Of a DNA stretch of 64,000 nt, positions 312 through 25,401 are shown one piece after another; the stretch's first letter is position 1; every line of letters begins with the position of its first letter. This DNA is from Aliiroseovarius salicola. GTDB lineage: Bacteria > Pseudomonadota > Alphaproteobacteria > Rhodobacterales > Rhodobacteraceae. The translations under genes and the position numbers were made by a program. Location of the stretch: NCBI RefSeq assembly GCF_027891095.1, contig NZ_JAQIIO010000011.1, positions 1-64,000 of the forward strand, written 5' to 3'. The notes under the pieces were generated by a model, which was given only the letters and a program-made list of their open reading frames with translations, was not told the origin of the DNA and made no database searches.

Positions 312-1520
312 ATGGCAATGACACCACGGGAAAACTTCGAAGCAGCAATGGCGCGCAGCGGTGCGGAGTGGGTTCCGCTGGATATGGGCAAGCATATCGG
401 ATCGATCCACAAGCAGCATTATGCGGATCTGAAGGCGCATCTGCCGGGTGTCGAGATGGTTAATGAGGGAAAGATCCTCGACCGAATGGCGCAGACCGTG
501 GTTCCGGATGAAGCTCTACTTGAGTTCTTAGGGGTCGATTTCCGCTGGCTTGTGCCAAACTGGGTGCAGGTCACCGAACGTGACGATGCCGATGGCTATA
601 TCGACATGTGGGGGGTTCCCTATAAAGGTGCGGATGGCGACCATTTTGCGGTTGACGGTGCGCCCCTCAAGAATGCGGAGAGCATCGAAGATATTGAGGC
701 TCACCACTGGCCTGACTCGGAAGATCCGGATCAGTTTGACGGTCTGGCTGAGAGGGCAAAGGATCTGTTTGAAAACACCGGTTATGTGATTGGGGCTGAT
801 GCGATCAAAGCGGGCCCCCTGATGAGCTGTCTGCAGATCCGCGGTTACGAACAGTTTTTTGTGGATATGGTGGTCAATCCCGAATTCAGCGATGCGCTGA
901 TGACTAAAGTGACCGACCTCTTGTGCCGTATGTGGACACGCTACATGGAGGCCGTTGGGCCTTATGTGCAGATTGCTTATGTTACGGATGACCTCGGCAC
1001 GCAGACGTCGTTGCTGCTGTCGCCGAAGCTCTACCGGAAGCGGGTAAAGCCATTTCATACCAAGCTGCACCAGCACATCAAATCCTGCGCCAATGTAAAG
1101 CTGATGATGCACACCGATGGCGCGGTTCTTCCGTTGATTGACGATCTGGTGGAAACCGGGGCGGATATTCTGAACCCGGTGCAGACCTCCACGGCTGGGA
1201 TGGATGACACTGCCGTACTGAAGGAAAAGTTCGGCGACCAGATTGCTTTTCATGGTGCCATGGATGTGCAGCAGATGATGCCAGGGGCCACGCCTGATGA
1301 GCTTCGATGGGAAGTTGCACGGCGCATGAAGGACCTAGCCCCCGATGGGGGCTATATCATCGCGCCCTGCCACAATATTGGTCATGATATTCCGCCGGAA
1401 AATACAATCGCCTTCTTTGAAATGGTCGGCAAGATGAGGTGCTATCCGATTGCTCTGGATGATGTGCTTGAAAGCAATGCCTCCTATTTCGATCGTCTGA
1501 AACGTGAGGGTGGCGCATGA
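312..1520 (+). CDS. URO-D superfamily methyltransferase (MtaA/CmuA-like)
   Basis: Predicted soluble protein of 402 residues with the uroporphyrinogen decarboxylase TIM-barrel fold. The C-terminal half has the blocks expected of the non-haem branch of the family (ADILNPVQ, GMD, FHGAMD, YIIAPCHNIG and a following PPEN). MtaA and CmuA in this branch are zinc enzymes moving methyl groups to or from corrinoid proteins, and a corrinoid protein is encoded at 6012-6653. H267 and C353 fit two zinc ligands, but the usual H-x-C motif reads HTD here, so the metal site may differ. An in-frame ATG at 240 lies on the promoter -10/operator and is rejected; 312 or 318 is preferred. The gene overlaps the next by ATGA. 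A true HemE role is unlikely. The substrate is unknown. Confidence 0.75.
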   Translation: MAMTPRENFEAAMARSGAEWVPLDMGKHIGSIHKQHYADLKAHLPGVEMVNEGKILDRMAQTVVPDEALLEFLGVDFRWLVPNWVQVTERDDADGYIDMWGVPYKGADGDHFAVDGAPLKNAESIEDIEAHHWPDSEDPDQFDGLAERAKDLFENTGYVIGADAIKAGPLMSCLQIRGYEQFFVDMVVNPEFSDALMTKVTDLLCRMWTRYMEAVGPYVQIAYVTDDLGTQTSLLLSPKLYRKRVKPFHTKLHQHIKSCANVKLMMHTDGAVLPLIDDLVETGADILNPVQTSTAGMDDTAVLKEKFGDQIAFHGAMDVQQMMPGATPDELRWEVARRMKDLAPDGGYIIAPCHNIGHDIPPENTIAFFEMVGKMRCYPIALDDVLESNASYFDRLKREGGA

Positions 1521-2278
1521 GCCCGAACGCCACCTTCAAGAAGCGTCTTTTGGCGCGTGAGCAACTGGTCGGGTGTTTCATCAAGACACCGCACCCAACC
1601 GTGATTGAGGTTCTGGGCGCAACCGATCTCGATTTTCTGGTTCTGGATGGGGAGCATTCCCCCTTCGACAAGGTCTCGATCAACTTGTGCATGCTGGCCG
1701 CCAAGGCGGTTGGCGTGCCGCTTCTCATCCGCGTGCCGGACGACAGCCCCGCCTTCATCCTGAATGTACTGGATTGCGGTGCGGCGGGTGTTGTTGTGCC
1801 CCATGTGGTGAGCGTTGAGCAGGCGGAAACTCTGGCACGCTCAATGCGTTACGTGCCGGGAGGGCGCGGCATAGCTGGCACGACACGGGCCGGTGGTTAC
1901 GGGGCTGTTCCATTGCCCGAGCATCGTGCGGCGGCTGACAGCGAAGTATCGTTGATCTGCCAGATCGAAGATCGCGAAGGCGTTAAAAACGCAGAGGCGA
2001 TTGCCGCGGTTGACGGGGTTGATGCGCTTTTTGTCGGGCGTGCCGACCTGACCGTGTCCTACGGGCTCAGCGATTTCAACGACGCCGGGATCGCGGAGAA
2101 ATGTGCTGACGTTCTGGAGGTGAAAGGGGCGACGACGGGCCTTTTTGTAGCTCCAACCGAAGACATGGCCCCCTGGCGTGACAAGGGGGCCAGCTTTTTC
2201 CTGAGCGGCTCCGACCATTCTTTCTTATTCGCAGGTGCCAAGGAACTGGCCTCTCGCAAGCAAGACACATCTTCCTGA
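1517..2278 (+). CDS. HpcH/HpaI family class II aldolase
   Basis: A 253-residue TIM-barrel aldolase of the 2-keto-3-deoxy acid type. Family members cleave 4-hydroxy-2-oxo acids to pyruvate (or a related 2-oxo acid) and an aldehyde. Expected residues are visible: H47 in LVLDGEH, E151 in QIEDREG and D177 in GRADL (metal ligands), and the glycine-rich RYVPGGRG segment. It is translationally coupled to the upstream methyltransferase gene (ATGA at 1517), suggesting that the demethylated skeleton finally undergoes retro-aldol cleavage. The exact substrate cannot be told from sequence. Confidence 0.85.
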   Translation: MSPNATFKKRLLAREQLVGCFIKTPHPTVIEVLGATDLDFLVLDGEHSPFDKVSINLCMLAAKAVGVPLLIRVPDDSPAFILNVLDCGAAGVVVPHVVSVEQAETLARSMRYVPGGRGIAGTTRAGGYGAVPLPEHRAAADSEVSLICQIEDREGVKNAEAIAAVDGVDALFVGRADLTVSYGLSDFNDAGIAEKCADVLEVKGATTGLFVAPTEDMAPWRDKGASFFLSGSDHSFLFAGAKELASRKQDTSS

Positions 2279-2290
2279 GGAGACACCTAT

Positions 2291-3544
2291 ATGTCCGATC
2301 TTCTGACCCCCGACTATGCTAAAAATATGCGCCTGATTGGCCATTCCGATCAGGGTGGCCGTGCTGATGGCATCCAGATCATGGTGTCTGGCGGCTATGC
2401 TTATGTGGGCCATGTGTTCAATAACGGTTTCTCGATCATCGACGTGCGTGATCCGAAAAAACCGAGATTCGTCAAACATATCCCGCAGCCCGAGGGCACT
2501 TGGTCGCAGCACTTGCAAACCCACGGCGACATCCTGATTGTCAACAACATGTGTGACATGCTGAAGGTCGAAACCTCGGGCGCTTTCGATCCGGGTGAGT
2601 ATTACAAGGGTTCGGTTGCCGATAAAGTCGACTTTGCCGGTGAAAAACCCTGGTCGGCCGGCATGCGTGTCTATGATATTTCCGACCGGGAAAACCCGCG
2701 CGAGATCGCCTTCCTCGATGTTCCCGGCCTCGGTGTGCACCGTGTGTTCTGGGACGGTGGCGACTGGGCTTATATCTCAGCTCTTCCTCCGGGATTCTCG
2801 GATGATATCTTTATGATTGTAGACTTCCGTAATCCGGAAAAGCCCGAAGTCGTCAGCAAACTCTGGAAAGAGGGTATGCACACGGCAGGCGGTGAAGAGC
2901 CCTGGTGGGATCCGAAATACCGTTATGCTCTGCATCATGCGATCATCAAAGGTGATCTGGGCGCTGCCGCCTGGCGCGATGGTGGCATGTCGCTGATCGA
3001 CGTGTCGGACCGCTATAATCCGAAATTCATCAGCCATGACAATCCGTGCCCGCCCTTTGCTGGCCACACTCACAACACGTTGCCGCTGCTTGATCGCGGT
3101 ATTTTGTTTGTGGTTGAAGAAAGCCAGGCCGACAATTGCGAAGATGGGATCAAGCGTAACTGGGTTTACGATATTTCGGTCCGGGAAAACCCTGTCACCA
3201 TTGCCACGACCTTGCCGCCGGACGAGGCTGACTACAAGAATAAGGGTGGTCAATTTGGCCCGCATAATGTGCATGAAAACCGCTCCGAAGGTTTTCAGAG
3301 CGAAGAGTTGATGTTCGTCAGCTATCAGAATGCAGGTCTCAGGGTTTATGACATTTCGAACCCGTTCCGCCCGGAAGAGGTTGCTGCATGTGTGCCGCCT
3401 GCGCCGAAGGAGTTGATGGATTACCGACCGAACCGCCCGGTGGTTGTTGATACGACAGATGTTTACGTGGATAAGCAAGGTCTTATCTACACAACCGACA
3501 TGAATGCCGGGCTCTACATCATGGAAATGGATGGGCTCAAATGA
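2291..3544 (+). CDS. LVIVD-repeat beta-propeller protein
   Basis: A 417-residue protein with repeated blocks of the form 'vYvs....glrviDisdP..P', seen as SIIDVRDPKKP, RVYDISDRENP, SLIDVSDRYNP and RVYDISNPFRP. These are LVIVD repeats, expected to fold as a beta-propeller. No signal peptide is visible, so it should be cytoplasmic, unlike many LVIVD proteins. A GGAG box precedes the ATG and the 3' end overlaps the next gene by ATGA. Its biochemical role is unknown; within the operon it could be a scaffold or a lactonase-like enzyme, but no catalytic residues can be assigned. Confidence 0.75.
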   Translation: MSDLLTPDYAKNMRLIGHSDQGGRADGIQIMVSGGYAYVGHVFNNGFSIIDVRDPKKPRFVKHIPQPEGTWSQHLQTHGDILIVNNMCDMLKVETSGAFDPGEYYKGSVADKVDFAGEKPWSAGMRVYDISDRENPREIAFLDVPGLGVHRVFWDGGDWAYISALPPGFSDDIFMIVDFRNPEKPEVVSKLWKEGMHTAGGEEPWWDPKYRYALHHAIIKGDLGAAAWRDGGMSLIDVSDRYNPKFISHDNPCPPFAGHTHNTLPLLDRGILFVVEESQADNCEDGIKRNWVYDISVRENPVTIATTLPPDEADYKNKGGQFGPHNVHENRSEGFQSEELMFVSYQNAGLRVYDISNPFRPEEVAACVPPAPKELMDYRPNRPVVVDTTDVYVDKQGLIYTTDMNAGLYIMEMDGLK

Positions 3545-4527
3545 CCAAGCTGGTAATCGCGGGGAAAATTCACCCTGATGGCATGGCGCTTCTTGAGGTG
3601 GAGTCGGATCTGGAGATTGAACTCTTTGAAGACCCGAGCGCTCATCTGCCGATGGAGAGCCTATCGGCGGCGGATGCGCTGTTGATCCGCTATGGGGTGA
3701 TCACTTCCGAGATGGCGGCTGGAATGCCCAATCTGAAGGTTATGTCGCGGCATGGTGTCGGCTGCGACAACCTGCCCAATGCCGAGCTTGGCGCGCGGGG
3801 CATTCCTGTAACGATTGTCGGTCCTGTCAATGCGGTCTCGGTTGCTGAGCAGATTATGGCGATGATGATGGCCCTGACAAAAAAGATCATCCCCAGCGAT
3901 GCGGCAGTGCGTGACGGCAAGTGGAGCTATCGAAATACAGTGGCGCTGAGTGAGCTTTCGGGCAAGACCCTGCTGCTGTTGGGTTTTGGGCGCATCGGTC
4001 GGGAAGTGGCGCGCCGTGCCGCTGCCTTCGATATGTCGGTCAAAGTGTTCGACCCCTTTGTTGACCCGGATGTGGTGCGCAGCGCAGGTTATGTGCCGGT
4101 AGAGGACTGGAAAGCTGCTTTGCCGGAGATTGATGTGCTCAGCCTGCATTTGCCCGCTAACCCTGACACGATGGGGTTGATCGGCGTGGAGGAGCTTGCA
4201 AGGATGAAGCCCACGGGCATTCTGATCAATGCCGCTCGGGGCGGCCTGATCGATGAAGAGGCCCTGTTCGATGCCTTGCGGGCCCGCATGTCCAGTGGTG
4301 GGGCAGGGCTTGACTGTCTTGCATCGGAGCCTCCCGCGAAGGATCTCCGCCTGCTGTCACTGCCCAACGTGGTATTCAGTCCGCATTCGGCTGCACTCAG
4401 TGCGGAAAGCACCCGTGCCATGGGCGTTGTGGCGGCGCAGAACATCCTTGCGGGTCTGACGGGTGAATTGAAGCCTGAGCTCATCTTTAACGCAACGGCC
4501 CTGAAAGAGGCTGCTCATGACTTATGA
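3541..4527 (+). CDS. D-2-hydroxyacid dehydrogenase family protein
   Basis: A 328-residue NAD(P)-dependent dehydrogenase of the phosphoglycerate / D-2-hydroxyacid family. The Rossmann motif GFGRIG lies at 148-153, followed by D/P at the second strand end (KVFDP), the LHLP block, NAARGG (arginine for substrate carboxylate) and the catalytic histidine H282 in SPHSA. It should interconvert a 2-oxo acid and a D-2-hydroxy acid. It overlaps the LVIVD gene by four bases and the next gene by eleven, so it is tightly coupled. It may act before or after the HpaI aldolase; the order is not decidable from sequence. Confidence 0.85.
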   Translation: MTKLVIAGKIHPDGMALLEVESDLEIELFEDPSAHLPMESLSAADALLIRYGVITSEMAAGMPNLKVMSRHGVGCDNLPNAELGARGIPVTIVGPVNAVSVAEQIMAMMMALTKKIIPSDAAVRDGKWSYRNTVALSELSGKTLLLLGFGRIGREVARRAAAFDMSVKVFDPFVDPDVVRSAGYVPVEDWKAALPEIDVLSLHLPANPDTMGLIGVEELARMKPTGILINAARGGLIDEEALFDALRARMSSGGAGLDCLASEPPAKDLRLLSLPNVVFSPHSAALSAESTRAMGVVAAQNILAGLTGELKPELIFNATALKEAAHDL

Positions 4528-5251
4528 GATCCCGACCGAAGGACGCATTCCGCTGCTTGATATCACGATCCCGATCCATTGGGACAATCATGCCATTCTT
4601 ATGTTTGGTATCTGGTTTGTTTTGGTTCCCGCAGCGGTGATGTTCCTTCGTTTCGGAAAAATCCGGCCAACCCCTTACGGTATTCCGCGCGGCACCTCCA
4701 AATGGGCATGGCCGGAGCTGCCGTGGACACTGCATAAGCTGTCGCTCTATGCCGGGATCTTTCTTGCTGTGGGTGGGGCCGGGTTTGCCATGCTGCTCAG
4801 TGGTGGGTTTTCTGGCACTCTGCATGCCTGGTTTGGTCTGGGTACCATCGGGCTCGGCGTGCTGCAGGGCGGGTCAGCTTGGCTGCGAGGCAGTCATGGC
4901 GGGCGCAAGGCGGCTGAAGCAGACCCAGAGGATCGCGCCACGTGGGGAGGGGATCACTTTGACATGACCCCTCAGCGCTGGTGGTTTGAGGCCTATCACA
5001 AGACGGCCGGGTATTTTGCCCTGTTTCTGGCTTTGGGGGCTGTGACTACGGGGCTTTCTCAATTCTGGATGCCAGGCATTGCCATTGCGCTTGCTGGGAT
5101 TTTTTTGGCGGGGTTTGTCGCTGCGGTCATCCTGCAGGGCAGGGGGCATAATCACGACACCTATCAATCGGTCTATGGCAACCATCCGGAACATCCGTTC
5201 AACCGAAAACGCTATCATGGGATGTTCAAGGCGCAGGGCAAAAAGCCCTGA
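4517..5251 (+). CDS. Cytochrome b561-like membrane protein
   Basis: A 244-residue protein with five likely membrane segments, near 24-44, 74-94, 100-120, 165-185 and 188-210. Histidines in or next to these helices (about 22-27, LHKLS, LHAWFG, YHKTAG) match the four-histidine, two-haem pattern of eukaryote-like b561/ferric reductase domains. It could pass electrons across the membrane for a reductive or oxidative step of the pathway, for example corrinoid reactivation, but that is inference. It ends the rightward operon and faces the next gene tail to tail. Confidence 0.7.
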   Translation: MTYEIPTEGRIPLLDITIPIHWDNHAILMFGIWFVLVPAAVMFLRFGKIRPTPYGIPRGTSKWAWPELPWTLHKLSLYAGIFLAVGGAGFAMLLSGGFSGTLHAWFGLGTIGLGVLQGGSAWLRGSHGGRKAAEADPEDRATWGGDHFDMTPQRWWFEAYHKTAGYFALFLALGAVTTGLSQFWMPGIAIALAGIFLAGFVAAVILQGRGHNHDTYQSVYGNHPEHPFNRKRYHGMFKAQGKKP

Positions 5252-5338
5252 GCTGATAGCTTGAAGTGAACTTTGCGGGCAAACGACGGATGACCTGAAA
5301 GGTTGCTTGGGTTTCTCTATCGATCGCAAGAAACTGGT

Positions 5339-5995
5339 TCAGACCCTCAAGGTCAGGCCGAGCAGCGAATTCAATGGGGAGAAGCAGCCGGTCTCGGTGA
5401 GAGATACTCCTGGATTGATGTCGTCAAAGACCGATAACAACTCCTGTACACGGCGGGGATCCCATGTGCGGCGCTCTCCGCAGATGGCGGTTGATTGGAC
5501 GGGAACGCGGATCAAGCGATTGTTCGGGTAAAGGTTACGCAATACCTGTTGCGCCGCGCGCCCCAGTGCAAAGAGAACCTCGCTGGCGAGGTCCGATTGC
5601 ACATGATGAGCGGCGTAATCCTGATCCAGCAAGTCGAATGCCTGCTGTTGGGAAAAGCCGAGTGTCAACAGGTAAGCTGTGACCTCACCGCCTGTACTCA
5701 ATTTGCGAAAAATATCTTCACCGTCCAGATACACGCGTTGATCCAGCAGAATTCCCTGTGCTGTCGGTTTTGCGTCAATGGGTTTCAGGATGATCGACGC
5801 CTTGCCAAGGGATGAGATGCAATGAGACGCCTGTTCAAGCCAACCCATCACCCCCTTGGCTCGAGATCCGCCGCGCTCCAACATTCGGGCATATTGCTTT
5901 TGACGCTGGAGGCGCGACTGTGCGATGGGCAGCAAGCTGTCCATCGGCACTTCGTATGTTATGGCTTGCATCGAGGGGGGAAGGGGGGCGTTCAT
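5339..5995 (-). CDS. Stand-alone MetH activation-domain-like protein
   Basis: A 218-residue protein whose C-terminal third follows the pattern of the B12-dependent methionine synthase activation domain: a basic CGERRTW segment, an xxLLSVFD helix, GVSLTETG, then SPLNSLLGL at the end (compare LTES..M.P..SVSGL in MetH). In MetH this domain binds AdoMet and supports reductive methylation of inactive cob(II)alamin. The gene follows the corrinoid gene by 16 bases, so it is a good candidate for reactivating that protein. The canonical RxxPGY stretch is degenerate. A TTG at 6028 is an alternative start overlapping the corrinoid gene; the ATG at 5995 is preferred. Confidence 0.65.
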   Translation of the reverse strand: MNAPLPPSMQAITYEVPMDSLLPIAQSRLQRQKQYARMLERGGSRAKGVMGWLEQASHCISSLGKASIILKPIDAKPTAQGILLDQRVYLDGEDIFRKLSTGGEVTAYLLTLGFSQQQAFDLLDQDYAAHHVQSDLASEVLFALGRAAQQVLRNLYPNNRLIRVPVQSTAICGERRTWDPRRVQELLSVFDDINPGVSLTETGCFSPLNSLLGLTLRV

Positions 5996-6011
5996 CTCGT
6001 ATGTGTCGGGA

Positions 6012-6653
6012 TCATGCGACAAGCCCAAGGGCGCGCTTAACTGCGCCTACCGCACCCGGAGCATCTTCGCCGAATGCATCCGCACCAATCAGGTTTGCGT
6101 AGTCTTGCGTGATGACCGCACCGCCCACCACGATCTTTGCTTCGTTGCTGGAAGCGCGAAGATGTTTGATAGCACTTATCATGCGGGGTTTGGTGGTGGT
6201 CAGTAGGGCGCTCAGGCAAACCACCTGATTGCCGCGTTCTACGGCTTTGGCAAACTCTTCATCAGGAACGTCAACTCCGAGATCTTCAACCTCAAAGCCT
6301 GCGCCCTTCAGCATCATGACAACAAGGTTCTTTCCGATATCGTGCAAATCGCCTTTGACGCTGCCGATGCAGACGCGTCCGACCGGTTCATGATCCGTTT
6401 CCGCGAGAACCGGTTCGATAATATCGATGCCGCCCTGCATGGCGCGCGCGGCGACCAGCATTTCGGGAACAAAGACCTCACCAGCGGAGAACTGATCACC
6501 AATTTCCGCCATGGCAGGGATCATCGTATCGTTCAGCAATTTGCCGAGATCTTCCCCAGCGTCGCGGGCTTTGGTCACGAGGTCGACGACAGTTTCCTTT
6601 TCGCCGTCACAGATGGCGTCGAACATGATGTCCTTTTCTTCTTCCGTCAGCAT
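6012..6653 (-). CDS. Corrinoid (B12-binding) methyltransferase protein, MtbC/MttC-like
   Basis: A 213-residue protein with an N-terminal helical cap (1-90) and a C-terminal cobalamin-binding Rossmann domain. The lower-ligand motif DxHxxG is at 102-107 with H104, followed by SALLTTT and GGAVIT. It should carry a methyl group on cobalt between a substrate-specific and an acceptor methyltransferase. The partners offered here are the URO-D protein (312-1520) and the MetE-like protein (22893-24017). The ATG at 6653 has a GGAG box at 6660-6663; a longer in-frame start at 6695 would place operator A3 inside the coding region and is rejected. Confidence 0.9.
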   Translation of the reverse strand: MLTEEEKDIMFDAICDGEKETVVDLVTKARDAGEDLGKLLNDTMIPAMAEIGDQFSAGEVFVPEMLVAARAMQGGIDIIEPVLAETDHEPVGRVCIGSVKGDLHDIGKNLVVMMLKGAGFEVEDLGVDVPDEEFAKAVERGNQVVCLSALLTTTKPRMISAIKHLRASSNEAKIVVGGAVITQDYANLIGADAFGEDAPGAVGAVKRALGLVA

Positions 6654-6673
6654 CAGGGTCTCCGAATCTTGAA

Positions 6674-6687
6674 TGAATGCGCATTCA
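6674..6687. promoter_or_regulatory. Candidate LacI-family operator, copy A3
   Basis: TGAATGCGCATTCA is a perfect 14-base palindrome, located 21 bases before the corrinoid start codon and touching the candidate -10 of its promoter. The same motif is at 123-136 and 241-254, linking the corrinoid pair and the URO-D operon into one regulon. Confidence 0.7.
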
Positions 6688-6715
6688 AAATGCATGACTT
6701 AGATGCGGTCGTCAA
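6687..6715 (-). promoter_or_regulatory. Candidate promoter of the corrinoid gene pair
   Basis: On the minus strand TTGACG (6715-6710) is followed after 17 bases by CATTTT (6692-6687), a weak -10, and then directly by operator A3. The layout (-35, -10, operator) copies that of the promoter at 214-254. Confidence 0.4.
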
Positions 6716-6834
6716 CCAAATATATTTGATTCTCTCATTGCCTTCATGAATTGTCCGGATGGGTTCAGTTGTAGGGGTGGATTGTGTATGTTGGATTTAA
6801 CGAGGATTTGTTCCGAGCATTTTGAGGGGTGGAA

Positions 6835-7854
6835 ATGGCAAATAGATCAGTAACTTCCTACGATGTAGCGAAGGCAGCGGGTGTATCCCAGTCTGCTGTG
6901 TCGAGGGCGTTCTCTCCGAAGGCATCTATTGCTGCAAAAACCAGAAAGCACATTCTGAATGTTGCACGGGAAATGGGGTATCAGCCGAATGCAATTGCAA
7001 GAAGCATGTCGGCGGCCCGCAATGCCACGCATCAGCGCTCTGGAATCGTCGGGGTGATCGTGACGCGATTGCAGGACCCGTTTTTCTCAGAAACCATTGC
7101 CCTGATCAGCCGCAGATTGCAGGCGCATGGCTGGCAGATGCTGCTCTTTACTGTCGAAACCGAGGCGGAAGTGGATGATGCGCTCAACTCTCTGATGCAG
7201 TTCAAGATCGATGGCGTGATGATCCTGTCGGCCATACTCAGTGACCAGATGGCTCAGGCCTGTAAATCGCAGGGGATTCCGGTTCTGCTTTACAACCGTG
7301 ACACAGATGGGTTGGGTGTCAGTTCGGTGCAGATCGAAAATCGAGAAGGCGGGAAAATCGCGGCGGATTTCCTGTGTGAAACCAGCCATGAGCGAATTGC
7401 GTTCATTGGGGGGGAGCGGGATGATGCAACCTCAAAAGCGCGCGAAGACGGATTCGCAGATCGGCTTGCAGAAGCGGGCCAAAGCGTCTTTCTGCGAGAA
7501 TATGGGGATTACACTTTTGAGGGTGGTGTGGAAGCAGGGCTTCGCTTGTTCTCAAGACATGAAAAACCTGATGCGGTGTTCTGCGCAAGTGATGTTATGG
7601 CACTTGGGGTGTTGCACGCCGCGCGCCATCAGCTGGGTCTGGATGCACCAAAGGATTTTTCGCTGATCGGATTTGATGACATTCCGTCAGCAAGCTGGCC
7701 CGGGCATGCATTGACCACCATTCGACAGCCCGTGCGTCGGATGATCCAGGATGCGGTGGAGTTGTTGATCGACCGGATTGAGGACACTGAGCTTGACGCG
7801 GTGATCCGGCATTTCCCGGGCACGCTCATATTACGCGATACTGTACGGTTATAA
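6835..7854 (+). CDS. LacI-family transcriptional regulator 1
   Basis: A 339-residue repressor. The N-terminal helix-turn-helix (6-27; VAKAAGVSQSAVSR), a hinge helix ending near SMSAARN, and a periplasmic-binding-protein-like sensor domain are all recognisable. A GAGGGG box precedes the ATG at 6835; the GTG at 6829 lies within that box region. It stands alone between two leftward operons. The recognition helix (SQSAVSR) is identical to that of the second LacI protein at 19760, so the two may read related operators. It probably senses the pathway substrate or an intermediate and controls the TGAATGCGCATTCA sites. Confidence 0.9.
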   Translation: MANRSVTSYDVAKAAGVSQSAVSRAFSPKASIAAKTRKHILNVAREMGYQPNAIARSMSAARNATHQRSGIVGVIVTRLQDPFFSETIALISRRLQAHGWQMLLFTVETEAEVDDALNSLMQFKIDGVMILSAILSDQMAQACKSQGIPVLLYNRDTDGLGVSSVQIENREGGKIAADFLCETSHERIAFIGGERDDATSKAREDGFADRLAEAGQSVFLREYGDYTFEGGVEAGLRLFSRHEKPDAVFCASDVMALGVLHAARHQLGLDAPKDFSLIGFDDIPSASWPGHALTTIRQPVRRMIQDAVELLIDRIEDTELDAVIRHFPGTLILRDTVRL

Positions 7855-15974: not shown

Positions 15975-16000
15975 TGAGAGGGGGTCCTGCGCCCCTCTCA
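15975..16000 (+). other. Intercistronic hairpin
   Basis: TGAGAGGGG (15975-15983) pairs with CCCCTCTCA (15992-16000) with an eight-base loop. No T-run follows. It lies in the 127-base gap between two SnoaL genes. Confidence 0.45.
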
Positions 16001-16032
16001 CCAACACCCAACATCCCGACAGGAGACACGCC

Positions 16033-16569: not shown

Positions 16570-16573
16570 GATT

Positions 16574-17902: not shown

Positions 17903-17913
17903 GGTGAAGACAG

Positions 17914-17971
17914 GCGTGAGGGGCACTTCCCCTCGCGCTCCCCAGGATACTCATGACAAGTAAAAAGATGG
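17914..17971. repeat. Dispersed intergenic repeat, copy E, with hairpin
   Basis: GCGTGAGGGG (17914-17923) pairs with CCCCTCGCGC (17929-17938, one G-U), followed by CCCCAGGATA and an A-rich AAGTAAAAAG tail. Reversed, the tail matches the 'TTTTTCTTG..A..ATA.CCT.GGGG' core of the copies near 34980, 46876, 50165 and 53764. This copy runs across the start codon of the next gene and appears to supply its AGGA box. Confidence 0.5.
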
Positions 17972-19002
17972 ATCGACACACCGAACATAAAGCCATGATC
18001 GCACCGTTTCGGCGGGCGATGCGGGCGTTTGCCGAAGCCCCGGTGCGAGCAGCGCTGGAAGAGCTTCTGGCTCCGAACGCATGTGTTCGCTTGTGTCATC
18101 CATTTGGCGATCTTTCAGGGCCATGCAGGTTTTACGATGTTGCCTATGCCCCTCTGTTGGAAGCCATGCCGGATCTGGAAGCGCGCGACTGGATTGTCAT
18201 GTCCGGCCCTGATGAACAAGGGAATGACTGGGTTGGTTGTGGCGGACACTATGTGGGCACCTTTATCGCACCTTTCCTGAACATTCCGCCCACAGGGCAA
18301 TTGGCCCACATGCGCTTTCACGAGTTTTACCGGTTGGAAGGCGATAAAGTGGTGGAGATACAGGCGATCTGGGATATTCCTGAACTGATGATGCAGTCCG
18401 GGTGCTGGCCGATGGTTCCCTCGCTGGGGCGCGATCTGTTTGTCCCCGGACCCGCCAGCCAGGATGGATTTGTGTCGGGTCCACGGGATGAGGTGCGCTC
18501 GGACGCTTCCTGCCGGCATATTGTCGATATGCTCAATCACCTGATCCGCCACCCGTTGCAAGGCGGCCCGGAAGTGATGGAGATGGAACGGTTCTGGCAT
18601 CCGCGTTTTAACTGGTATGGACCGGCCGGAATTGGCACCTCGCGGGGAGTGGTTGGATTTCGCCGAAACCACCAAATCCCCTTCCTGTCTGCCATGCCGG
18701 ATCGCGGGCAGTTCCCGGAGGAAACCCCCCATCATTTCTTTGGGGATGGCGACTATGCGGCCGTGACCGGCTGGCCCAATATGGCACAGACACTCTCTGG
18801 CGGGGGCTGGCTGGGCCTGCCACCAACCGGGCAGAAAATTACCTTGCGTAGCTTGGATTTCTGGCATGTCGAAGAGGGTTTGATCCGTGAAAACTGGGTG
18901 CTGGTCGATCTTCTGGACATTTATGCGCAGCTTGGGGTGGACGTTCTTGCTCGCATGTCGGAACTTGCCCCGGCATTTGAGACAAGAGGAGCCGTTTCAT
19001 GA
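17953..19002 (+). CDS. Tandem SnoaL-like (NTF2-fold) protein, paralogue 4
   Basis: A 349-residue protein with two SnoaL-like halves and the same landmarks as paralogues 1 and 2: IPELMMQSGCWP, PGPASQDG, WYGPAGIG and ENWVLVDLLDIYAQLGVD. Its catalysed reaction is unknown. The start is uncertain: the ATG at 17953 follows an AGGA inside a dispersed repeat, so the first residues would be repeat-encoded; 17968 and 17995 are in-frame alternatives. The 3' end overlaps the SDR gene by ATGA. Confidence 0.75.
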   Translation: MTSKKMDRHTEHKAMIAPFRRAMRAFAEAPVRAALEELLAPNACVRLCHPFGDLSGPCRFYDVAYAPLLEAMPDLEARDWIVMSGPDEQGNDWVGCGGHYVGTFIAPFLNIPPTGQLAHMRFHEFYRLEGDKVVEIQAIWDIPELMMQSGCWPMVPSLGRDLFVPGPASQDGFVSGPRDEVRSDASCRHIVDMLNHLIRHPLQGGPEVMEMERFWHPRFNWYGPAGIGTSRGVVGFRRNHQIPFLSAMPDRGQFPEETPHHFFGDGDYAAVTGWPNMAQTLSGGGWLGLPPTGQKITLRSLDFWHVEEGLIRENWVLVDLLDIYAQLGVDVLARMSELAPAFETRGAVS

Positions 19003-19763
19003 CCTTGCCCCGCACTCCATCCTTCCGCCTTGATGGCAAACGCGCCCTTGTGGCAGGCGCCAGTTCCGGCATCGGTCTGGCCTGCGCGGCCGCCCTTGGC
19101 GAGGCCGGTGCTGAGGTGACGGTTGCCGCACGCAGGATCGACGCTCTGGAAGCTTTGGTGGGTGAAATGCAAGCGGCCGGAATGAAAGCACTGGCTCTCG
19201 TCATGGATGTGGCTGATGTGGATGCAACCCAGGCAGCCGTGGCCGAAAACGGTCCTTATGATGTGCTGGTCAATTCCGCAGGTCTCGCCCGCCATGGCCC
19301 CGCGGAGGCCACGGAAGTTGCTGATTTCGATGCGGTATCGGACCTCAATATAAAGGGTGCCTATTTCCTCACTCAAGCTGTGGCCAAAGGGCTGATGGCG
19401 GCAGGTAAACCCGGCTCATTGATCAATATTTCCAGTCAGATGTCCAAGGTGGGGGGACTGGATCGTGCGGTCTACTCTGCGACCAAACACGCGCTGGAAG
19501 GTTTCACAAAGTCGATGGCCATCGAATGGGGTAAAGCGGGGATTCGCGTCAATACGATCTGCCCGACCTTCATCCTCACCGCGCTCACCCAATCCACGTT
19601 CGACCAGCCTGACAAACGGGCCTGGATCGAGGACAAGATCAAGCTGGGCCGTGTGGGGCAGGTCGAAGATATCATGGGAGCGGTCACATATCTCGCCTCT
19701 GATGCTTCCAGCCTGGTCACTGGATCAGCCTTGATGATTGACGGGGGGTGGACTGCGGAATGA
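18999..19763 (+). CDS. Short-chain dehydrogenase/reductase
   Basis: A 254-residue classical SDR. The cofactor motif GASSGIG lies near the N-terminus, then NSAG, the catalytic serine in NISSQ and Y159-x3-K163 in YSATK. It ends with the typical GSALMIDGG. The AARR segment after the second strand suggests NADP(H) could be used. It oxidises or reduces a hydroxyl or keto group of a pathway intermediate. Coupled by ATGA overlaps to both neighbours. Confidence 0.9.
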   Translation: MTLPRTPSFRLDGKRALVAGASSGIGLACAAALGEAGAEVTVAARRIDALEALVGEMQAAGMKALALVMDVADVDATQAAVAENGPYDVLVNSAGLARHGPAEATEVADFDAVSDLNIKGAYFLTQAVAKGLMAAGKPGSLINISSQMSKVGGLDRAVYSATKHALEGFTKSMAIEWGKAGIRVNTICPTFILTALTQSTFDQPDKRAWIEDKIKLGRVGQVEDIMGAVTYLASDASSLVTGSALMIDGGWTAE

Positions 19764-20773
19764 GCAAGGTTACCTCAGCAGAAGTCGCCGCCCTTGCAGG
19801 AGTGAGTCAATCCGCAGTGAGCCGGGTCTTCACTCCCGGTGCGTCGGCTTCGAAAAAGACCATAGAGAAGGTGAAGAAGGCAGCCGAAGAACTGGGCTAT
19901 CGCCCCAATTCCCTTGCACGTGCCATGGTGTCAGGCAAAAGCCGGATTATCGGTTTGGTGGTGGCTTATCTTGAAAACCACTTCTACCCGGAAGCGCTTG
20001 AAAAGCTCTCAAATACTTTGCAGGAGAGGGGATATCACGTGCTCATCTTCATGGCCTCGCAAACGGCCGAGGATGTGAATGACGTGGTTGAGGAAATCCT
20101 GGATTATCAAGTGGATGGGATCATCACTGCTTCTGTGGCCATGTCCTCGGAACTGACCGACCGCTGCCGCAAGGCGGGGGTGCCGATAGTGCTGTTTAAC
20201 CGATCTCAGGACGGGCCGGAATTCTCCTCTGTCGCCTCGAATAATGTGGCGGGTGGGCGCAAGGTTGCTGAGTTTCTGTTGGCTGGGGGGCATAAGAAAA
20301 TCGGCTATATCGCGGGATGGGAAGGCGCATCGACCCAGAGGGACCGTGAAGCAGGATTTGTTTCGCGGCTGGCCGAGGAAGGGATTTCGCTGCACAGCCG
20401 TGAGGTCGGCGATTTCAATATTGACAAGTCGACTGATGCAACACGCCGGATGTTTGACCAGGATCCGCCGGACGCGGTCTTCGTGGCAAATGACCATATG
20501 GCATTTGCAGTAATGGATGTTCTGCGTTCAGAGCTGGGCCTTTCTGTGCCCGGTGATGTGTCTGTGGTGGGTTACGATGACGTGCCCATAGCCGGATGGC
20601 CCGCCTATGACCTGACCACTGTACGACAACCTGCCAACCGGATGGTGGCGGAAACGGTTGATCTCCTGCTTGCAGAAATTGATGGCGAGGATGTTGAGCC
20701 TCAAAAAATCGAAATTGACGGGCCGCTCATTGTGCGTGGGTCTGCCCGTGTGCCGGAAGGATGGAGTGAATGA
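19760..20773 (+). CDS. LacI-family transcriptional regulator 2
   Basis: A 337-residue repressor with an N-terminal helix-turn-helix (VAALAGVSQSAVSR), hinge helix and periplasmic-binding-like sensor domain. The ATG at 19760 forms an ATGA overlap with the SDR stop. Its recognition helix has the same SQSAVSR as LacI 1. Being inside the transporter operon it probably autoregulates through the TGCAT-type operators at 10266-10336, though cross-regulation with LacI 1 is possible. Confidence 0.9.
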   Translation: MSKVTSAEVAALAGVSQSAVSRVFTPGASASKKTIEKVKKAAEELGYRPNSLARAMVSGKSRIIGLVVAYLENHFYPEALEKLSNTLQERGYHVLIFMASQTAEDVNDVVEEILDYQVDGIITASVAMSSELTDRCRKAGVPIVLFNRSQDGPEFSSVASNNVAGGRKVAEFLLAGGHKKIGYIAGWEGASTQRDREAGFVSRLAEEGISLHSREVGDFNIDKSTDATRRMFDQDPPDAVFVANDHMAFAVMDVLRSELGLSVPGDVSVVGYDDVPIAGWPAYDLTTVRQPANRMVAETVDLLLAEIDGEDVEPQKIEIDGPLIVRGSARVPEGWSE

Positions 20774-21759
20774 AGGGTTTCGACAGTAAATTCAAAGATT
20801 TCCCTGACTATATTATCGAGATCACCCGTGAAATCTGGGAAGGTCGTGGGCTGGCAACGCTACATGACTGTTATGCACCGGATATCGTGGTGCGCAGCCC
20901 CGGATCAGTGGTGATCGGCAATGAAAACGTGATTGGCGCAACCATGGCCACGCTGGCGGAGTTTCCGGATCGTGAGCTTCTGGGTGAAGACGTGATTTGG
21001 TCCGGAACACCGGAGGAAGGCATGTTGTCCTCGCACCGGATCCTGACCATGGCCACCCATCTGGGCGATGGTGTCTATGGTACCGCCACGGGCAAGCGAC
21101 TGACCTATCGGGTGATTGCTGATTGTCATGCGAAGAACAACGCGATCGATGATGAATGGCTCATTCGCGATCAGGGCGCGATTGTGCGCCAGATGGGCTG
21201 GGATGTGACCGATTATACCCGTGACCTGATCATGCGCGAAGGCGGGCCAGAGACCTGCGTGAAGCCCTTTACCCCGGATATCGACCAACCCGGCCCCTAT
21301 AAAGGTCGCGGCAATGACAATGAATGGGGAGAGCGCCACGCCGACATACTGAACCGCATCATGTCTGCCGACATTACTGTGATCAAAGCGGAATATGATC
21401 GTGCGGTGCAATCGGAATATCCTGGCGGTGTGACCGGTCACGGGTGGGATCCCGTTGAGCGGTTCTGGATGGGGCTGCGTGCGGCTTTTCCGACAGCCAA
21501 GTTCGAAATCCACCACCAGATCGGGCGAGACGATCCCCATATGCCACCGCGTTCGGCCATTCGATGGAGCCTGACCGGCACCCATGACGGCTGGGGCAGC
21601 TTTGGCAAGCCAACGGGTGCACAAGTGCATGTGATGGGAGCCAGCCACGCGGAATTTGGTGCGGTTGTACCCGGTCAGGTCAAGCTGCGCCGCGACTGGA
21701 CCCTATTTGATGAAACTTCGGTCTGGAAACAGATCCTCCTGCACAAGGGTGATCTCTGA
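20770..21759 (+). CDS. Divergent tandem NTF2-fold (SnoaL-like) protein, paralogue 5
   Basis: A 329-residue protein that begins like a SnoaL/NTF2 domain (an 'IWEGRGLATLHDCYAPDIVV' opening) and has a second such half from about residue 180 (ERFWMGLRAAFP, IRWSLTGTHDG). It lacks the shared ENWV..D signature, so it belongs to a separate branch from paralogues 1-4. It overlaps the LacI stop by ATGA. Function unknown; an isomerase, dehydratase or hydrolase is plausible. Confidence 0.7.
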   Translation: MKGFDSKFKDFPDYIIEITREIWEGRGLATLHDCYAPDIVVRSPGSVVIGNENVIGATMATLAEFPDRELLGEDVIWSGTPEEGMLSSHRILTMATHLGDGVYGTATGKRLTYRVIADCHAKNNAIDDEWLIRDQGAIVRQMGWDVTDYTRDLIMREGGPETCVKPFTPDIDQPGPYKGRGNDNEWGERHADILNRIMSADITVIKAEYDRAVQSEYPGGVTGHGWDPVERFWMGLRAAFPTAKFEIHHQIGRDDPHMPPRSAIRWSLTGTHDGWGSFGKPTGAQVHVMGASHAEFGAVVPGQVKLRRDWTLFDETSVWKQILLHKGDL

Positions 21760-21868
21760 ATGTCCACCCGCATTTCATCTCTGGATGCCAGTCAGGCCAT
21801 GCGGCGCTTTCACGCGCACCGGGCCAGCCTGCGTGCCCGGCGATTGAACAACCTCCCTCCCGGAGCCC

Positions 21869-21889
21869 GGGTTTGAACCGTTCAAGCCC
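21869..21889 (+). other. Intercistronic hairpin before the cupin gene
   Basis: GGGTTTGAA (21869-21877) pairs with TTCAAGCCC (21881-21889) with one wobble pair and a three-base loop. No T-run follows. The 148-base gap here is the second longest in the long operon and the cupin gene after it has a strong AAAGGAG box. Confidence 0.45.
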
Positions 21890-21907
21890 CACCCAAAGGA
21901 GATTAAA

Positions 21908-22870
21908 ATGAGCAATATCCAAGACCGCATCGTTCGCTATGGCGAGCTGAAACCCTGTAAAACCGCCTTCATCGACGCCCATACACCAGGCTCTGACCAG
22001 AAGGAAAACTTCACCATCATCGGTGGCGGTGTGTCGGAATCTCCCGACCAGCACGTGCACATCACCGACAAGATCGGGTTCAACATCGGCGCTGCCGGAC
22101 AGCCGCCGAAATGTCGCAACTCGCTGCACAGCCACACCACGGCGGAAGTGTTCTTTGTGGCCAAGGGCCGCTGGCGCTTTTTCTGGGGGCGATACGGCAC
22201 AGCAGGGGAATTCGTTGCTGAAGAAGGTGATATCTTCAACATTCCCACCGGGATTTTCCGTGGCTTTGAAAACATTGGCACCGACTACGGCATGATTATG
22301 TCGATGCTGGGTGGCGACGATGCGGGTGGCGGTGTGACCTGGGCCCCTCAGGTGATCGAAGACGCACGGGCCCACGGGTTGGTACTGGGCGAAAATGGTG
22401 TGCTTTATGACAGCAAGAAAGGAGAGGAACTGCCCCACAATGTCTCTCCCATGCCGCTTCTTACCGAGGAAGAACTCAAGGCCTATCCGGAAGTGCCCGT
22501 CGATGCCGTTATCGGCAAATATGTCGCCCGTTACTGGGACATGATGGCGCTGGCGGCGGACAAGCCCACCAAGGTGATTGGCGAGGATGGCTTCATCAAG
22601 GATAAGCCGGGTTTTGAGGTTGATTTTCTGACCCGCGGCTCTGCGGTGACCGACGCCATCAAGGCAGAAAAGCCGGTTGTTCTGATGCCGATGCGGGGCA
22701 ATTGGCGGATCAATGTGGATGGCTACGAGGTTGTTCTTTCGAATGGCGACACCGCACTTGTGCTGCCCGGTGAAAGCTATGTGGCTGAACCCTCGATGAC
22801 CGGTGAGGCCAGCCTTTATCGGATCACCACCACCGATGATGCGCCCGGGGCCACCTGGACCGGAAATTAA
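21908..22870 (+). CDS. Bicupin-like protein
   Basis: A 320-residue protein with an N-terminal cupin barrel carrying the metal motif H74-x-H76-x3-E80 (HSHTTAE), then FNIPTGIFRGFEN at its second motif. The C-terminal part (about 245-310) resembles a second, metal-less cupin (GNWRINVDGYEVVLSNGDTA split by short loops). Such proteins can be dioxygenases, isomerases or metal-dependent lyases. An AAAGGAG box precedes the ATG. The role in the pathway is not assignable. Confidence 0.7.
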   Translation: MSNIQDRIVRYGELKPCKTAFIDAHTPGSDQKENFTIIGGGVSESPDQHVHITDKIGFNIGAAGQPPKCRNSLHSHTTAEVFFVAKGRWRFFWGRYGTAGEFVAEEGDIFNIPTGIFRGFENIGTDYGMIMSMLGGDDAGGGVTWAPQVIEDARAHGLVLGENGVLYDSKKGEELPHNVSPMPLLTEEELKAYPEVPVDAVIGKYVARYWDMMALAADKPTKVIGEDGFIKDKPGFEVDFLTRGSAVTDAIKAEKPVVLMPMRGNWRINVDGYEVVLSNGDTALVLPGESYVAEPSMTGEASLYRITTTDDAPGATWTGN

Positions 22871-22892
22871 ACCTAAAAGGGAGGAGCCCATA

Positions 22893-24017
22893 ATGACAGC
22901 TATCAAAACAACCCACGTGGGCTCCTTGCCTCGTACACAGGACGTGGTGGATTTCATCTTTGCCCGTGAACGTGAAGAGGCGTTTGAACAAGACGCATTT
23001 GACGCTTGTATGACAGCCGCGGTGTCGGAGACAGTGCGTAAGCAGGTCGAGGCGGGAATTGATGTGGTCAGCGATGGTGAGACCTCGAAAATCTCCTACG
23101 CCACCTACGTAAAGGACCGCTATACCGGCTTTGCCGGCGACAGCCCGCGCAATGCGCCGGCTGATCTGAAGATGTTTCCAGGTTTTCTTAATCGGCTCGC
23201 CGATGACGGCGGCACGCCAAAATACGCCCGACCGATGTGCGTGGGTGAAGTGCGCTCAAAAGGGCAGGGGGAGCTTGAGAAAGACATTGCCAATCTGAAG
23301 GTGGCAATAGCGGAACATGGTGCCGAGCGCGGGTTCATGAACGCGGCCAGCCCCGGGGTGATCTCGCTATTCCTGCAAAACGATTATTACAAATCGCGTG
23401 AAGCCTATCTGGCTGCGCTCGCGGATGCGATGAAGGCTGAATATGAGACCATCGTGGCCTCCGGACTGGATTTGCAGCTTGATTGCCCGGATCTTGCCCT
23501 GTCTCGTCACATGCTATTTACGGATCTCAGCGACGACGAATTCGTGAAGGTGGCAAATCTGCATGTAGAGGCGTTGAACTATGCGTTGTCGGACGTACCC
23601 GCAGATAAGGTGCGCGTGCATATCTGCTGGGGCAATTACGAAGGCCCGCATTGTTGTGACATCCCAATGGCCAAGATGTTCGACACGCTGATGGCGACAA
23701 AGTCCCGTTACGTGCTGTTTGAAACTTCAAACCCGCGCCATGGGCATGAATGGACGACGTTTCGGGACCGGAAGGCGGATATTCCCGAAGATAAGGTGCT
23801 GGTGCCCGGCGTGGTCGATACCACCACCAATTTCGTCGAACACCCCGAGCTGGTGGTACAAAGGATTACGCGCTTTGTAGATATTGTTGGCGCAGATCGG
23901 GTGATGGCCGGATCTGATTGCGGGTTCGGCACTTTTGCGGGCTTTGGTGCAGTGGATCCAGACATTGCCTTTGCCAAGCTTGCAGCCCTGTCGGAAGGGG
24001 CAAGTTTGGTCAAATGA
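22893..24017 (+). CDS. MetE-core-like zinc methyltransferase
   Basis: A 374-residue protein equal to the C-terminal catalytic barrel of cobalamin-independent methionine synthase, without the N-terminal half. All four zinc ligands are in place: H243 and C245 in VHICWG, E277 in LFETSN and C343 in GSDCGFG. Short 'core-MetE' proteins in other organisms take methyl groups from donors other than methyl-THF, including corrinoid proteins. With a corrinoid protein in the same island, this one could be the acceptor-side methyltransferase. The ATG at 22893 has a GGAGGAG box. Overlaps the next gene by ATGA. Confidence 0.85.
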   Translation: MTAIKTTHVGSLPRTQDVVDFIFAREREEAFEQDAFDACMTAAVSETVRKQVEAGIDVVSDGETSKISYATYVKDRYTGFAGDSPRNAPADLKMFPGFLNRLADDGGTPKYARPMCVGEVRSKGQGELEKDIANLKVAIAEHGAERGFMNAASPGVISLFLQNDYYKSREAYLAALADAMKAEYETIVASGLDLQLDCPDLALSRHMLFTDLSDDEFVKVANLHVEALNYALSDVPADKVRVHICWGNYEGPHCCDIPMAKMFDTLMATKSRYVLFETSNPRHGHEWTTFRDRKADIPEDKVLVPGVVDTTTNFVEHPELVVQRITRFVDIVGADRVMAGSDCGFGTFAGFGAVDPDIAFAKLAALSEGASLVK

Positions 24018-24709
24018 CACCGCTTCTGCTGCTTCCCGGCATGATGTGTGATGCCCGGCTATATGGCCCTCAGATGGACGTGCTGTCGGGCCGGATCCCG
24101 ATCATGACCTGCCCGATTGGTGGTCAGGATAGTATGGCGGATTTGGCTGCTGATATTCTGGCGTATGCCCCACCGCGTTTTGCCATCGCAGGCCTCTCCA
24201 TGGGCGGGATCGTAGCGATGGAAGTTTTGCGCCAGGCCCCGGACCGGGTATTGGGGATCGCGCTGATCGACACCAATCCGCTGGCCGAGAAAGACGAGGT
24301 TAAAGCACGCCGCGTGCCGCAGATAGAGACCGTCCGAAATGGTGGTCTTCGGACCGTCATGCGTGAGGAGATGAAGCCCAACTATCTCACGGACGGCCCG
24401 CAGCGTGGTGCAATCCTCGATCTCTGCATGGATATGGCGATGGACCTCGGTGCTGACGTTTTCATTAACCAATCCAAAGCGTTGCGAGGCCGGATTGATC
24501 AAAGTGACACATTGCGCGGTTTCACTCGACCCGCTCTGGTGCTCTGTGGGCGGGAGGATGTGCTCTGCCCGGTGGAACGCCATGTATTGATGCATGATCT
24601 GCTGCCGAACAGTCGGTTGGAGATCATTGAAAACGCGGGGCATCTGCCCACGCTGGAACAATCCGACAAAACAAATGCAGCGCTGATCCGCTGGCTGGAG
24701 GAGCTATGA
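24014..24709 (+). CDS. Alpha/beta hydrolase
   Basis: A 231-residue alpha/beta hydrolase with nucleophile S62 in GLSMGG, acid in GREDVL and histidine in AGHLPTLE. An ester, lactone or C-C bond could be its target. It is coupled by ATGA overlaps to the MetE-like gene upstream and the RraA-like gene downstream, so it is part of the same catabolic operon. Confidence 0.85.
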   Translation: MTPLLLLPGMMCDARLYGPQMDVLSGRIPIMTCPIGGQDSMADLAADILAYAPPRFAIAGLSMGGIVAMEVLRQAPDRVLGIALIDTNPLAEKDEVKARRVPQIETVRNGGLRTVMREEMKPNYLTDGPQRGAILDLCMDMAMDLGADVFINQSKALRGRIDQSDTLRGFTRPALVLCGREDVLCPVERHVLMHDLLPNSRLEIIENAGHLPTLEQSDKTNAALIRWLEEL

Positions 24710-25401
24710 ACCCATCCCTTCTGGACCTTCTGAAAAAGGTGGATACGCCCACCGTCTGCAATGCGATCGAAGTGGCGCAGGGCAAGCGTGGTTTCAATGA
24801 CTTCACTCGTGGCACAATGCTGTGTTCCAATCCGGAAGGAGGCGCGATGGTCGGTTATGCCCGTACTGCGAAGATCGCTGCGGTGAACCCGCCTGAGGAA
24901 CCGCCTGAGGTGATCAAGGCGCGGCGAATGGATTATTACCGCCACATGTCCGAAGGACCGCGCCCGGCTGTGACGGTGGTCGAGGATGTGGATTACCCGA
25001 ACTGCATCGGTGCCTATTGGGGTGAAATCAATACCAGTGTGCATAAGGGCTTTAGTATCAGTGGAGCATTGACCAACGGCGTTATGCGTGACCTTGGCGA
25101 CCTGCCGGATAATTTTCCTGTAGTGGCGGGCTCCATTGGCCCCTCGCATGGATTTGTGCATGTGAAAGAGATTGGCACGTCCGTTGAGATCTTCGGGCTC
25201 ACGGTGAAAGATGGAGACCTTGTGCATGCCGACCGCCACGGTGCGCTGGTCATTCCACCAGAGGTCGTTCCCGCCTTGGAGGAAGCCATTATAAAACTGC
25301 TCGACACCGAAAAACTGGTGCTGGACCCGGCCCGCGAAGACGGGTTCGATTTCGAGGCGTTTGAGAAAGCTTGGGCTGCGTTTGAAGCTGCACGGACGTA
25401 A
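24706..25401 (+). CDS. RraA-like aldolase/decarboxylase family protein
   Basis: A 231-residue member of the RraA / 4-hydroxy-4-methyl-2-oxoglutarate aldolase family. Typical blocks are GAYWGE, the turn ALTNGVMRD, and HADRHGALVIP. Catalytic relatives are class II retro-aldolases that also decarboxylate oxaloacetate; other members are RNase E inhibitors. In a catabolic operon the aldolase role is far more likely. It is the last gene of the run beginning at 10367, and no clear terminator follows. Confidence 0.8.
   Translation: MNPSLLDLLKKVDTPTVCNAIEVAQGKRGFNDFTRGTMLCSNPEGGAMVGYARTAKIAAVNPPEEPPEVIKARRMDYYRHMSEGPRPAVTVVEDVDYPNCIGAYWGEINTSVHKGFSISGALTNGVMRDLGDLPDNFPVVAGSIGPSHGFVHVKEIGTSVEIFGLTVKDGDLVHADRHGALVIPPEVVPALEEAIIKLLDTEKLVLDPAREDGFDFEAFEKAWAAFEAART

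Follow-up and report, generated by a model that had tools for sequence, protein, structure and literature searches.

A probable corrinoid-dependent O-demethylation module and its neighbouring operon in the alphaproteobacterium Aliiroseovarius salicola

The window analysed here (G000:C3:1-64000) covers the opening 64 kb of contig C3 in the 3.58-Mb Aliiroseovarius salicola genome, and the contig begins at base 1 of this stretch. Positions 312-7854 hold a gene module that probably encodes a corrinoid-dependent O-demethylation system feeding folate one-carbon (C1) metabolism in an aerobic-type alphaproteobacterium. Corrinoid-dependent demethylation of ethers is known from anaerobes, and the genera that carry the module are ones that we take to be aerobic. 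The gene families, a conserved active site, the linkage of the genes and C1 genes upstream of the module in some relatives carry this reading. We annotated 30 open reading frames (ORFs) of the window, up to 29.7 kb, with Pfam and NCBIfam. Positions 312-25401 comprise two units, the corrinoid module and an operon of CUT1, SnoaL, HisD, cupin, MetE-like and RraA genes that continues to 25.4 kb. The families named in an earlier note on this DNA were recovered by Pfam: URO-D, HpcH/HpaI, 2-Hacid_dh, B12-binding with B12-binding_2, 4HBT_2 and Amidohydro_2; the MalK-type ATPase, binding protein and two permeases of an importer, with Histidinol_dh, SDR and cupin enzymes; and Meth_synt_2, an alpha/beta hydrolase, RraA and five SnoaL proteins, which the note had described as five NTF2-fold proteins. 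Its central proposal, a corrinoid methyl-transfer system in an alphaproteobacterium, is supported by families, conserved sites and gene neighbourhood. It did not mention the LVIVD-repeat protein, the membrane protein resembling cytochrome b561 or the two regulators of the LacI family.

Composition and conservation of the corrinoid module

The module opens with a UroD-fold protein (312-1520, forward strand; PF01208, 86.5 bits against a cut-off of 23.9), the proposed substrate:corrinoid methyltransferase (methyltransferase I, MT-I). Its ORF opens at 240, and the start at 312 chosen in the earlier note fits the conserved start better. On the same strand follow a GarL-like aldolase of the HpcH/HpaI family (1517-2278; PF03328; GarL model 144 bits, cut-off 406.75), the LVIVD-repeat protein (2291-3544; PF08309), a D-2-hydroxyacid dehydrogenase (3541-4527; PF02826, 177.3 bits) and the cytochrome-b561-like membrane protein (4517-5251), for which L019 has an annotated cytochrome b561 domain-containing protein at 46-47% identity. 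The reverse strand encodes a standalone protein with the fold of the MetH activation domain (5339-6028), a candidate corrinoid reactivase, and the corrinoid-binding protein (6012-6695; PF02310 and PF02607; TIGR02370 165.8 bits, cut-off 215.3). The first LacI-family regulator (6835-7854, forward strand; PF00356) completes the module.

Numbered from the ORF start at 240, His291, Asp293 and Cys377 of the UroD protein are invariant in 10/10 aligned sequences, an alignment that leaves out L009 and L016 for frame or contig truncation. Asp293 replaces the Cys of the HxC motif in CmuC and other UroD relatives. The genome's other PF01208 protein is full-length and has none of the three residues; its site is unlike that of an O-demethylase, and it was taken for HemE. 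The corrinoid protein keeps the motif D-x-H-x-x-G in 11/11 sequences checked. Like corrinoid O-demethylases, the module has a UroD-superfamily MT-I, a separate corrinoid protein and a carboxylate in the metal site.

A genome-collection scan that took the UroD protein as query, and that picks up no more than close relatives, returned ten loci on ten contigs, all recorded as alphaproteobacterial except one whose record names Pseudomonadota only. A search of 121 genomes, our own included, matched that genome and G060, giving a total of 11 other loci. G201/G492 and G416/G498 were each taken as the same genome and counted once because their coordinates agree. When the window genes were mapped onto these loci, the UroD, LVIVD, 2-hydroxyacid dehydrogenase and b561-like genes were each present in 11/11. 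The activation-like, corrinoid and LacI genes were found in 10/11, the contig of L013 ending before them and the LacI gene being cut short in L007. The LVIVD protein is the most conserved member (72-96% identity), and at 87% identity or more it occurs in 3/390 genomes of the order. Co-conservation elsewhere had been set beforehand as a test of the earlier proposal, and the recurrence of the module in 11 other loci shows that the gene set is no chance assembly. A point against our reading of the module is that the HpcH aldolase, present in 9/11 loci, was not found in L013 and L014.

Genes of the neighbouring operon (7.9-25.4 kb in the window) adjoin the module in seven of the 11 loci (L008, L009, L010, L011, L012, L014 and L015), some lying before UroD and some after LacI, in several arrangements. 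No operon genes were found in the 10 kb before UroD in L007 and L013, whose contigs end at the module's far side, nor in the 3.7 kb after LacI in L016, whose contig starts inside UroD; in L005 the transporter is unrelated and the HisD is 33% identical. At the level of carrier genomes, an orthologue of the operon HisD (at least 75% identity) is present in 10/11, a count that covers carriers only and has no background rate beside it. The operon cupin is present in 9/11 (Fisher p 0.02), an enrichment that is modest because the cupin occurs in 182/390 genomes of the order, most of which lack the module. We lean towards the view that module and operon serve one substrate. Several observations weigh against this. 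Only three operon genes lie within the fetched stretches of L008, L009 and L014, and the main operon of L008 is on a separate contig. Three of the ten HisD matches (G494, G495 and G060) span one stop codon, and in Ruegeria marina, which carries the module, neither the operon cupin nor a close HisD was found.

The strongest rival, possible and clearly less likely, holds that two separate pathways often share a neighbourhood, the module demethylating a methoxylated acid and the CUT1/SnoaL/HisD operon degrading another compound. The module indeed has its own regulator, aldolase and dehydrogenase and, in some genomes, a nearby TRAP importer. TRAP genes lie near the module's methyltransferase II (MT-II) gene at L008:4802-7593 and L009:4302-7224, and a TRAP binding protein lies near it at L010:6581-7675, where this was the only TRAP part tested. 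This suggests a second, acid-type importer and uptake of an acid by some carriers. The rival is further favoured by the two separate LacI regulators, by the placement of module and operon on different contigs in G060, by the Ruegeria marina genome, by the modest cupin enrichment and by the spread of the cupin in the same 390 genomes in which the LVIVD protein is so rare. Within the fetched stretches, the operon also occurs without the module on plasmids of Ruegeria conchae and Paracoccus alcaliphilus, and variants of it occur without the module in Martelella, Sinorhizobium medicae and Vibrio pelagius. The order of its CUT1/SnoaL/HisD/SDR/LacI/cupin/MetE/hydrolase/RraA genes (8367-25401) is largely kept in several fetched loci. 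Against two pathways stand the adjacency of operon genes to the module in the seven loci, with differing gene orders, and the HisD orthologue in nearly all carriers. Co-conservation and physical linkage, for which the earlier note had proposed to look in other genomes, are both seen; the frequency of the operon without the module, and Ruegeria marina, speak against a single pathway.

The UroD site, the fate of the methyl group and corrinoid reactivation

In the UroD superfamily, a His-Cys-Cys site marks S-methyltransferases and carboxylates replace Cys in O-methyltransferases (PMC10418091). The site in the module is therefore of the O-demethylase type and points to ether demethylation without proving it. 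The metal-site rule is not decisive because some UroD O-demethylases contain no zinc (PMC13222342), which weighs against our interpretation. In the mechanism that we propose, the UroD protein would act as MT-I, a metal held by His291, Asp293 and Cys377 would bind the ether oxygen, and the Co(I) form of the corrinoid protein would accept the methyl group. It is improbable that the UroD protein acts instead on a methyl-sulfur compound or a halomethane. The superfamily does include S-methyltransferases and haloalkane enzymes (PMC10418091, PMC13222342), but in all ten sequences Asp occupies the position of the first Cys ligand, and the co-inherited aldolase and hydroxyacid dehydrogenase suggest a substrate with a polar carbon skeleton.

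A UroD relative (34% identity) with the same HxD and Cys is encoded on a Chloroflexota plasmid from a cold seep (L121:6001-7128). It adjoins Gfo/Idh/MocA and sugar isomerase genes, and the fetched stretch contains no annotated corrinoid protein.

The likely methyl acceptor in the proposed O-demethylation system is tetrahydrofolate (THF), judging from genes upstream of UroD in some relatives. Nine loci were compared upstream; L005 and L016 are not among them, since UroD lies at the edge of the contig, or is cut by it, in these two. One protein cluster lies upstream of UroD and divergent from it in four of the nine (L008, L009, L010 and L015). Two members of the cluster were tested, and both score as methyl-THF:corrinoid methyltransferase (387.6 bits in L010 and 388.5 in L009, cut-off 259). 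A MetF-like gene lies alongside in L008, L010 and L015. Its product has no Pfam or NCBIfam match, and the assignment rests on a PDB profile match that is closest to methylenetetrahydrofolate reductase (7xg9, E 1.5e-49). L013 has instead a formate dehydrogenase alpha gene upstream of UroD (801.7 bits, cut-off 666.25). A third or fourth PF00809 match was found in 6/11 carrier genomes compared to 0/8 other genomes tested. The methyl group would thus pass to THF through a dedicated methyl-THF:corrinoid methyltransferase and be oxidised further by the MetF-like enzyme, with formate dehydrogenase present at one locus.

Some observations count against this folate branch. No such C1 genes were seen beside UroD in L007, L011, L012 and L014, where only three of the upstream ORFs were run against Pfam. 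The A. salicola window has neither MT-II nor MetF, and a PF00809 search of the genome returned FolP only. Only 240 bases of contig precede the UroD ORF, so such genes may be cut off here, and we take their absence from the assembly as the likeliest reason for the gap. Slightly less probable again than a sulfur or halomethane substrate is that the MetE-like protein hands the methyl group of the corrinoid protein to homocysteine, the cluster then serving to make methionine. A PF01717 search of the genome found no protein besides the MetE-like one, its HxC, E and C motifs, which we take to be the thiol site, are kept in 11/11 such proteins, and no MT-II was found in this genome. It sits, however, in an operon that often occurs where the corrinoid module is absent, and not in the corrinoid group to which the earlier note had assigned it. 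MetE was set aside as the methyl sink given the MT-II and MetF genes upstream of UroD in some relatives. This genome moreover has parts that resemble the split methionine synthase of roseobacters: a protein of the homocysteine-binding family and, 2 kb from it, a corrinoid protein.

These split-methionine-synthase-like genes are located elsewhere in the genome, at L117:5766-9898, and a following ORF there is presumably of the DUF1638 type.

Neither Pfam nor NCBIfam gave a match for the activation-like protein (5339-6028). A predicted fold was used for it because a PDB profile search found nothing credible; the alignments used for structure prediction leave out L005. The AlphaFold model has a pLDDT (predicted local distance difference test) score of 85.8, and in Foldseek methionine synthase chains take every rank from 1 to 19, with E <= 0.001 for 17 of these matches and E 9.7e-07 for 1j6r. 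The naming of this protein as MetH activation-like in the earlier note was therefore right. Of R-x-x-x-G-Y, which we take to be the S-adenosylmethionine (AdoMet) signature of the MetH activation domain, Arg173 is kept and Gly-Tyr is absent in 11/11 sequences. AdoMet use is doubtful because Gly-Tyr is absent, and this is a point against our reading. No RACE/RamA-type activase was recognised among the 30 annotated window ORFs, the rest of the genome not having been searched. From its modelled fold, we suggest that the standalone protein may reactivate oxidised cobalamin. The b561-like protein has seven His residues that are invariant in 13/13 sequences; our guess is that it could carry electrons, perhaps those needed for this reactivation.

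Outside the module, LVIVD homologues of about 53-54% identity (L017:14001-15239, L018:18001-19245 and L019:14001-15236) lie near sugar-ABC or oxidoreductase genes in Klebsiella, Shinella and Leisingera, and the Leisingera homologue has an FAD/Fe-S protein and a cytochrome b561 gene nearby. The LVIVD-homologue stretches of Klebsiella, Shinella, Erwinia and Leisingera contain no annotated corrinoid genes, which is a further point against our reading. PDB searches with the LVIVD and b561-like proteins gave nothing useful.

Relation to known corrinoid methyltransferase systems

The module shares a UroD-superfamily MT-I and a separate corrinoid protein with the three-component corrinoid O-demethylases of anaerobes (MtvB, OdmB, VdmB and MtoB). 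The methyl-THF MT-II of those systems is shared only by some of the related loci. The module differs from them in its alphaproteobacterial carriers, in having a MetH-activation-fold protein, while the genes annotated in the window include none recognised as RACE/RamA-type, and in being joined to the LVIVD, b561, aldolase and hydroxyacid dehydrogenase genes and to the CUT1 operon. Type 1 mlp gene clusters likewise combine a UroD methyltransferase, a corrinoid protein and an activase; they are found in obligate anaerobes only, encode at least Mlp2 and Mlp3 and mostly have His-Cys-Cys (PMC10418091), whereas the cluster described here has one UroD protein with a His-Asp-Cys site.

The earlier note had called such systems best known from anaerobes, which is fair, but there are aerobic precedents in the Cmu system (PMC13222342) and in MtgBCD of roseobacters (PMC12478193). 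MtgBCD, the roseobacter glycine betaine demethylase, has in common with the module an occurrence in marine alphaproteobacteria, a separate corrinoid protein, a PF00809 MT-II and a folate C1 sink (PMC12478193). Its MT-I belongs to PF06253, whereas here it is a PF01208 UroD protein, with no PF06253 among the annotated genes. The recharging of its cobalamin is predicted to fall to RamA and DUF1638 proteins (PMC12478193), in contrast to the MetH-activation-fold protein here. The chloromethane system of Methylorubrum (CmuA, CmuB and CmuC) shares alphaproteobacterial carriers, UroD-family proteins and a nearby methylenetetrahydrofolate reductase gene. CmuA unites MT-I and corrinoid protein (PMC13222342), whereas the UroD and B12-binding domains are encoded here by separate genes, and CmuC has HxC where the UroD protein of the module has HxD. 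In the literature consulted, the aerobic corrinoid cases concern chloromethane and glycine betaine. No published description of this gene set, or of a mycosporine catabolism matching it, was recognised in literature searches that did not cover most subscription journals. A conserved module of aerobic-type bacteria that combines an O-demethylase-type site with another kind of reactivation protein and, in part of the genomes, with a folate branch of its own would link B12 to how marine alphaproteobacteria degrade methoxylated compounds.

The neighbouring operon and candidate substrates

On the reverse strand, the module is followed by a 4HBT thioesterase-like protein (7890-8351; PF13279), also near the module in L008 and L015, by a lactonase-like amidohydrolase (8367-9233; PF04909; L-fuconolactonase model 122.9 bits, cut-off 400) and by SnoaL/NTF2-fold protein A (9230-10243; PF07366; ORF opening at 10786). 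All further genes of the operon lie on the forward strand. The CUT1 importer consists of a MalK-like ATPase (10367-11422; PF00005 and OB_MalK), a solute-binding protein (11524-12756; PF01547) and two permeases (12822-13850 and 13852-14733; both PF00528). SnoaL proteins B (14910-15905; PF12680) and C (16081-16569; PF07366) precede an HpsN-like HisD-family dehydrogenase (16574-17902), a candidate for CH2OH to COOH oxidation. SnoaL protein D (17953-19002; PF07366), an SDR dehydrogenase (18999-19763; PF13561), the second LacI-family regulator (19748-20773; PF00356) and SnoaL protein E (20770-21759; PF07366) come next. The operon ends with a bicupin (21908-22870; PF07883 matching the first half and AraC_binding, weakly, the second), the MetE-core-like protein (22893-24017; PF01717), a PcaD-like alpha/beta hydrolase (24014-24709; PF12697) and an aldolase-type protein of the RraA family (24706-25401; PF03737). 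The PcaDC model (96.4 bits, cut-off 390) and the LigK model (19.2 bits, cut-off 304.5) offer leads only for the last two. The starts given for SnoaL proteins A, B and C, the ATPase, the second permease, the HisD protein, the MetE-core-like protein and the hydrolase are inferred.

The HisD protein scores 404 bits to the 2,3-dihydroxypropane-1-sulfonate (DHPS) dehydrogenase CpHpsN (8v35) and 250 bits to the best histidinol dehydrogenase, making the HpsN DHPS 3-dehydrogenases, which oxidise CH2OH to COOH, its closest solved relatives. In HpsN, His126 of the 122-126 motif recognises the sulfonate and Lys353 also binds it (PMC11382572). Lys353 is kept in the operon proteins, whereas Met stands at the position of His126 in 13/13. 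Degradation of a sulfonate such as DHPS, which the closeness of HisD to the DHPS dehydrogenase would favour, was accordingly set aside as very improbable on this His126 replacement; nor do the genes annotated in the window include any recognised as releasing sulfur. A literature search for homarine as substrate gave nothing fitting among the papers listed.

The bicupin keeps HxHxxxE and carries Arg instead of the last His in 18/18 sequences, as read against what we take to be the cupin consensus; a PDB search with it gave nothing useful. The RraA protein has the motif MRD in 16/16. Together with the HisD and MetE-like proteins, these residues would fit a polar, sugar- or cyclitol-like compound. 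If both units serve one substrate, the HisD, SDR, SnoaL, cupin, hydrolase and RraA proteins would act on the polar compound left after demethylation, or on its parent once the CUT1 transporter has brought that in, and the HpcH aldolase and 2-hydroxyacid dehydrogenase of the module would finish the fragments.

One route of this kind, a long shot when its steps are taken jointly, would degrade methoxy-cyclohexenones such as gadusol or mycosporine cores. HisD would convert the ring CH2OH to COOH, and the corrinoid system would remove the 2-O-methyl group to give a reductone. The bicupin would then cleave the reductone as acireductone dioxygenase does, yielding 4-carboxy-4-hydroxy-2-oxoadipate, which an RraA/LigK-type aldolase would split into pyruvate and oxaloacetate. 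The chemistry, reasoned from the structures of gadusol and mycosporines, is coherent on paper, and no computed result singles the route out. If true, it would amount to B12-dependent consumption of marine sunscreens in air. No paper naming the substrate of the operon was listed by the literature searches. The defined gene set, and carriers such as Maritimibacter fusiformis HY14, Ruegeria lacuscaerulensis HKCCD5857 and Ruegeria marina, provide a basis for testing the substrate of what is a very common marine operon.

Beyond the operon, a reverse-strand run at 26744-29723 encodes, according to Pfam, a HisA-like barrel protein, an alpha/beta hydrolase and a protein of the endonuclease/exonuclease/phosphatase family.

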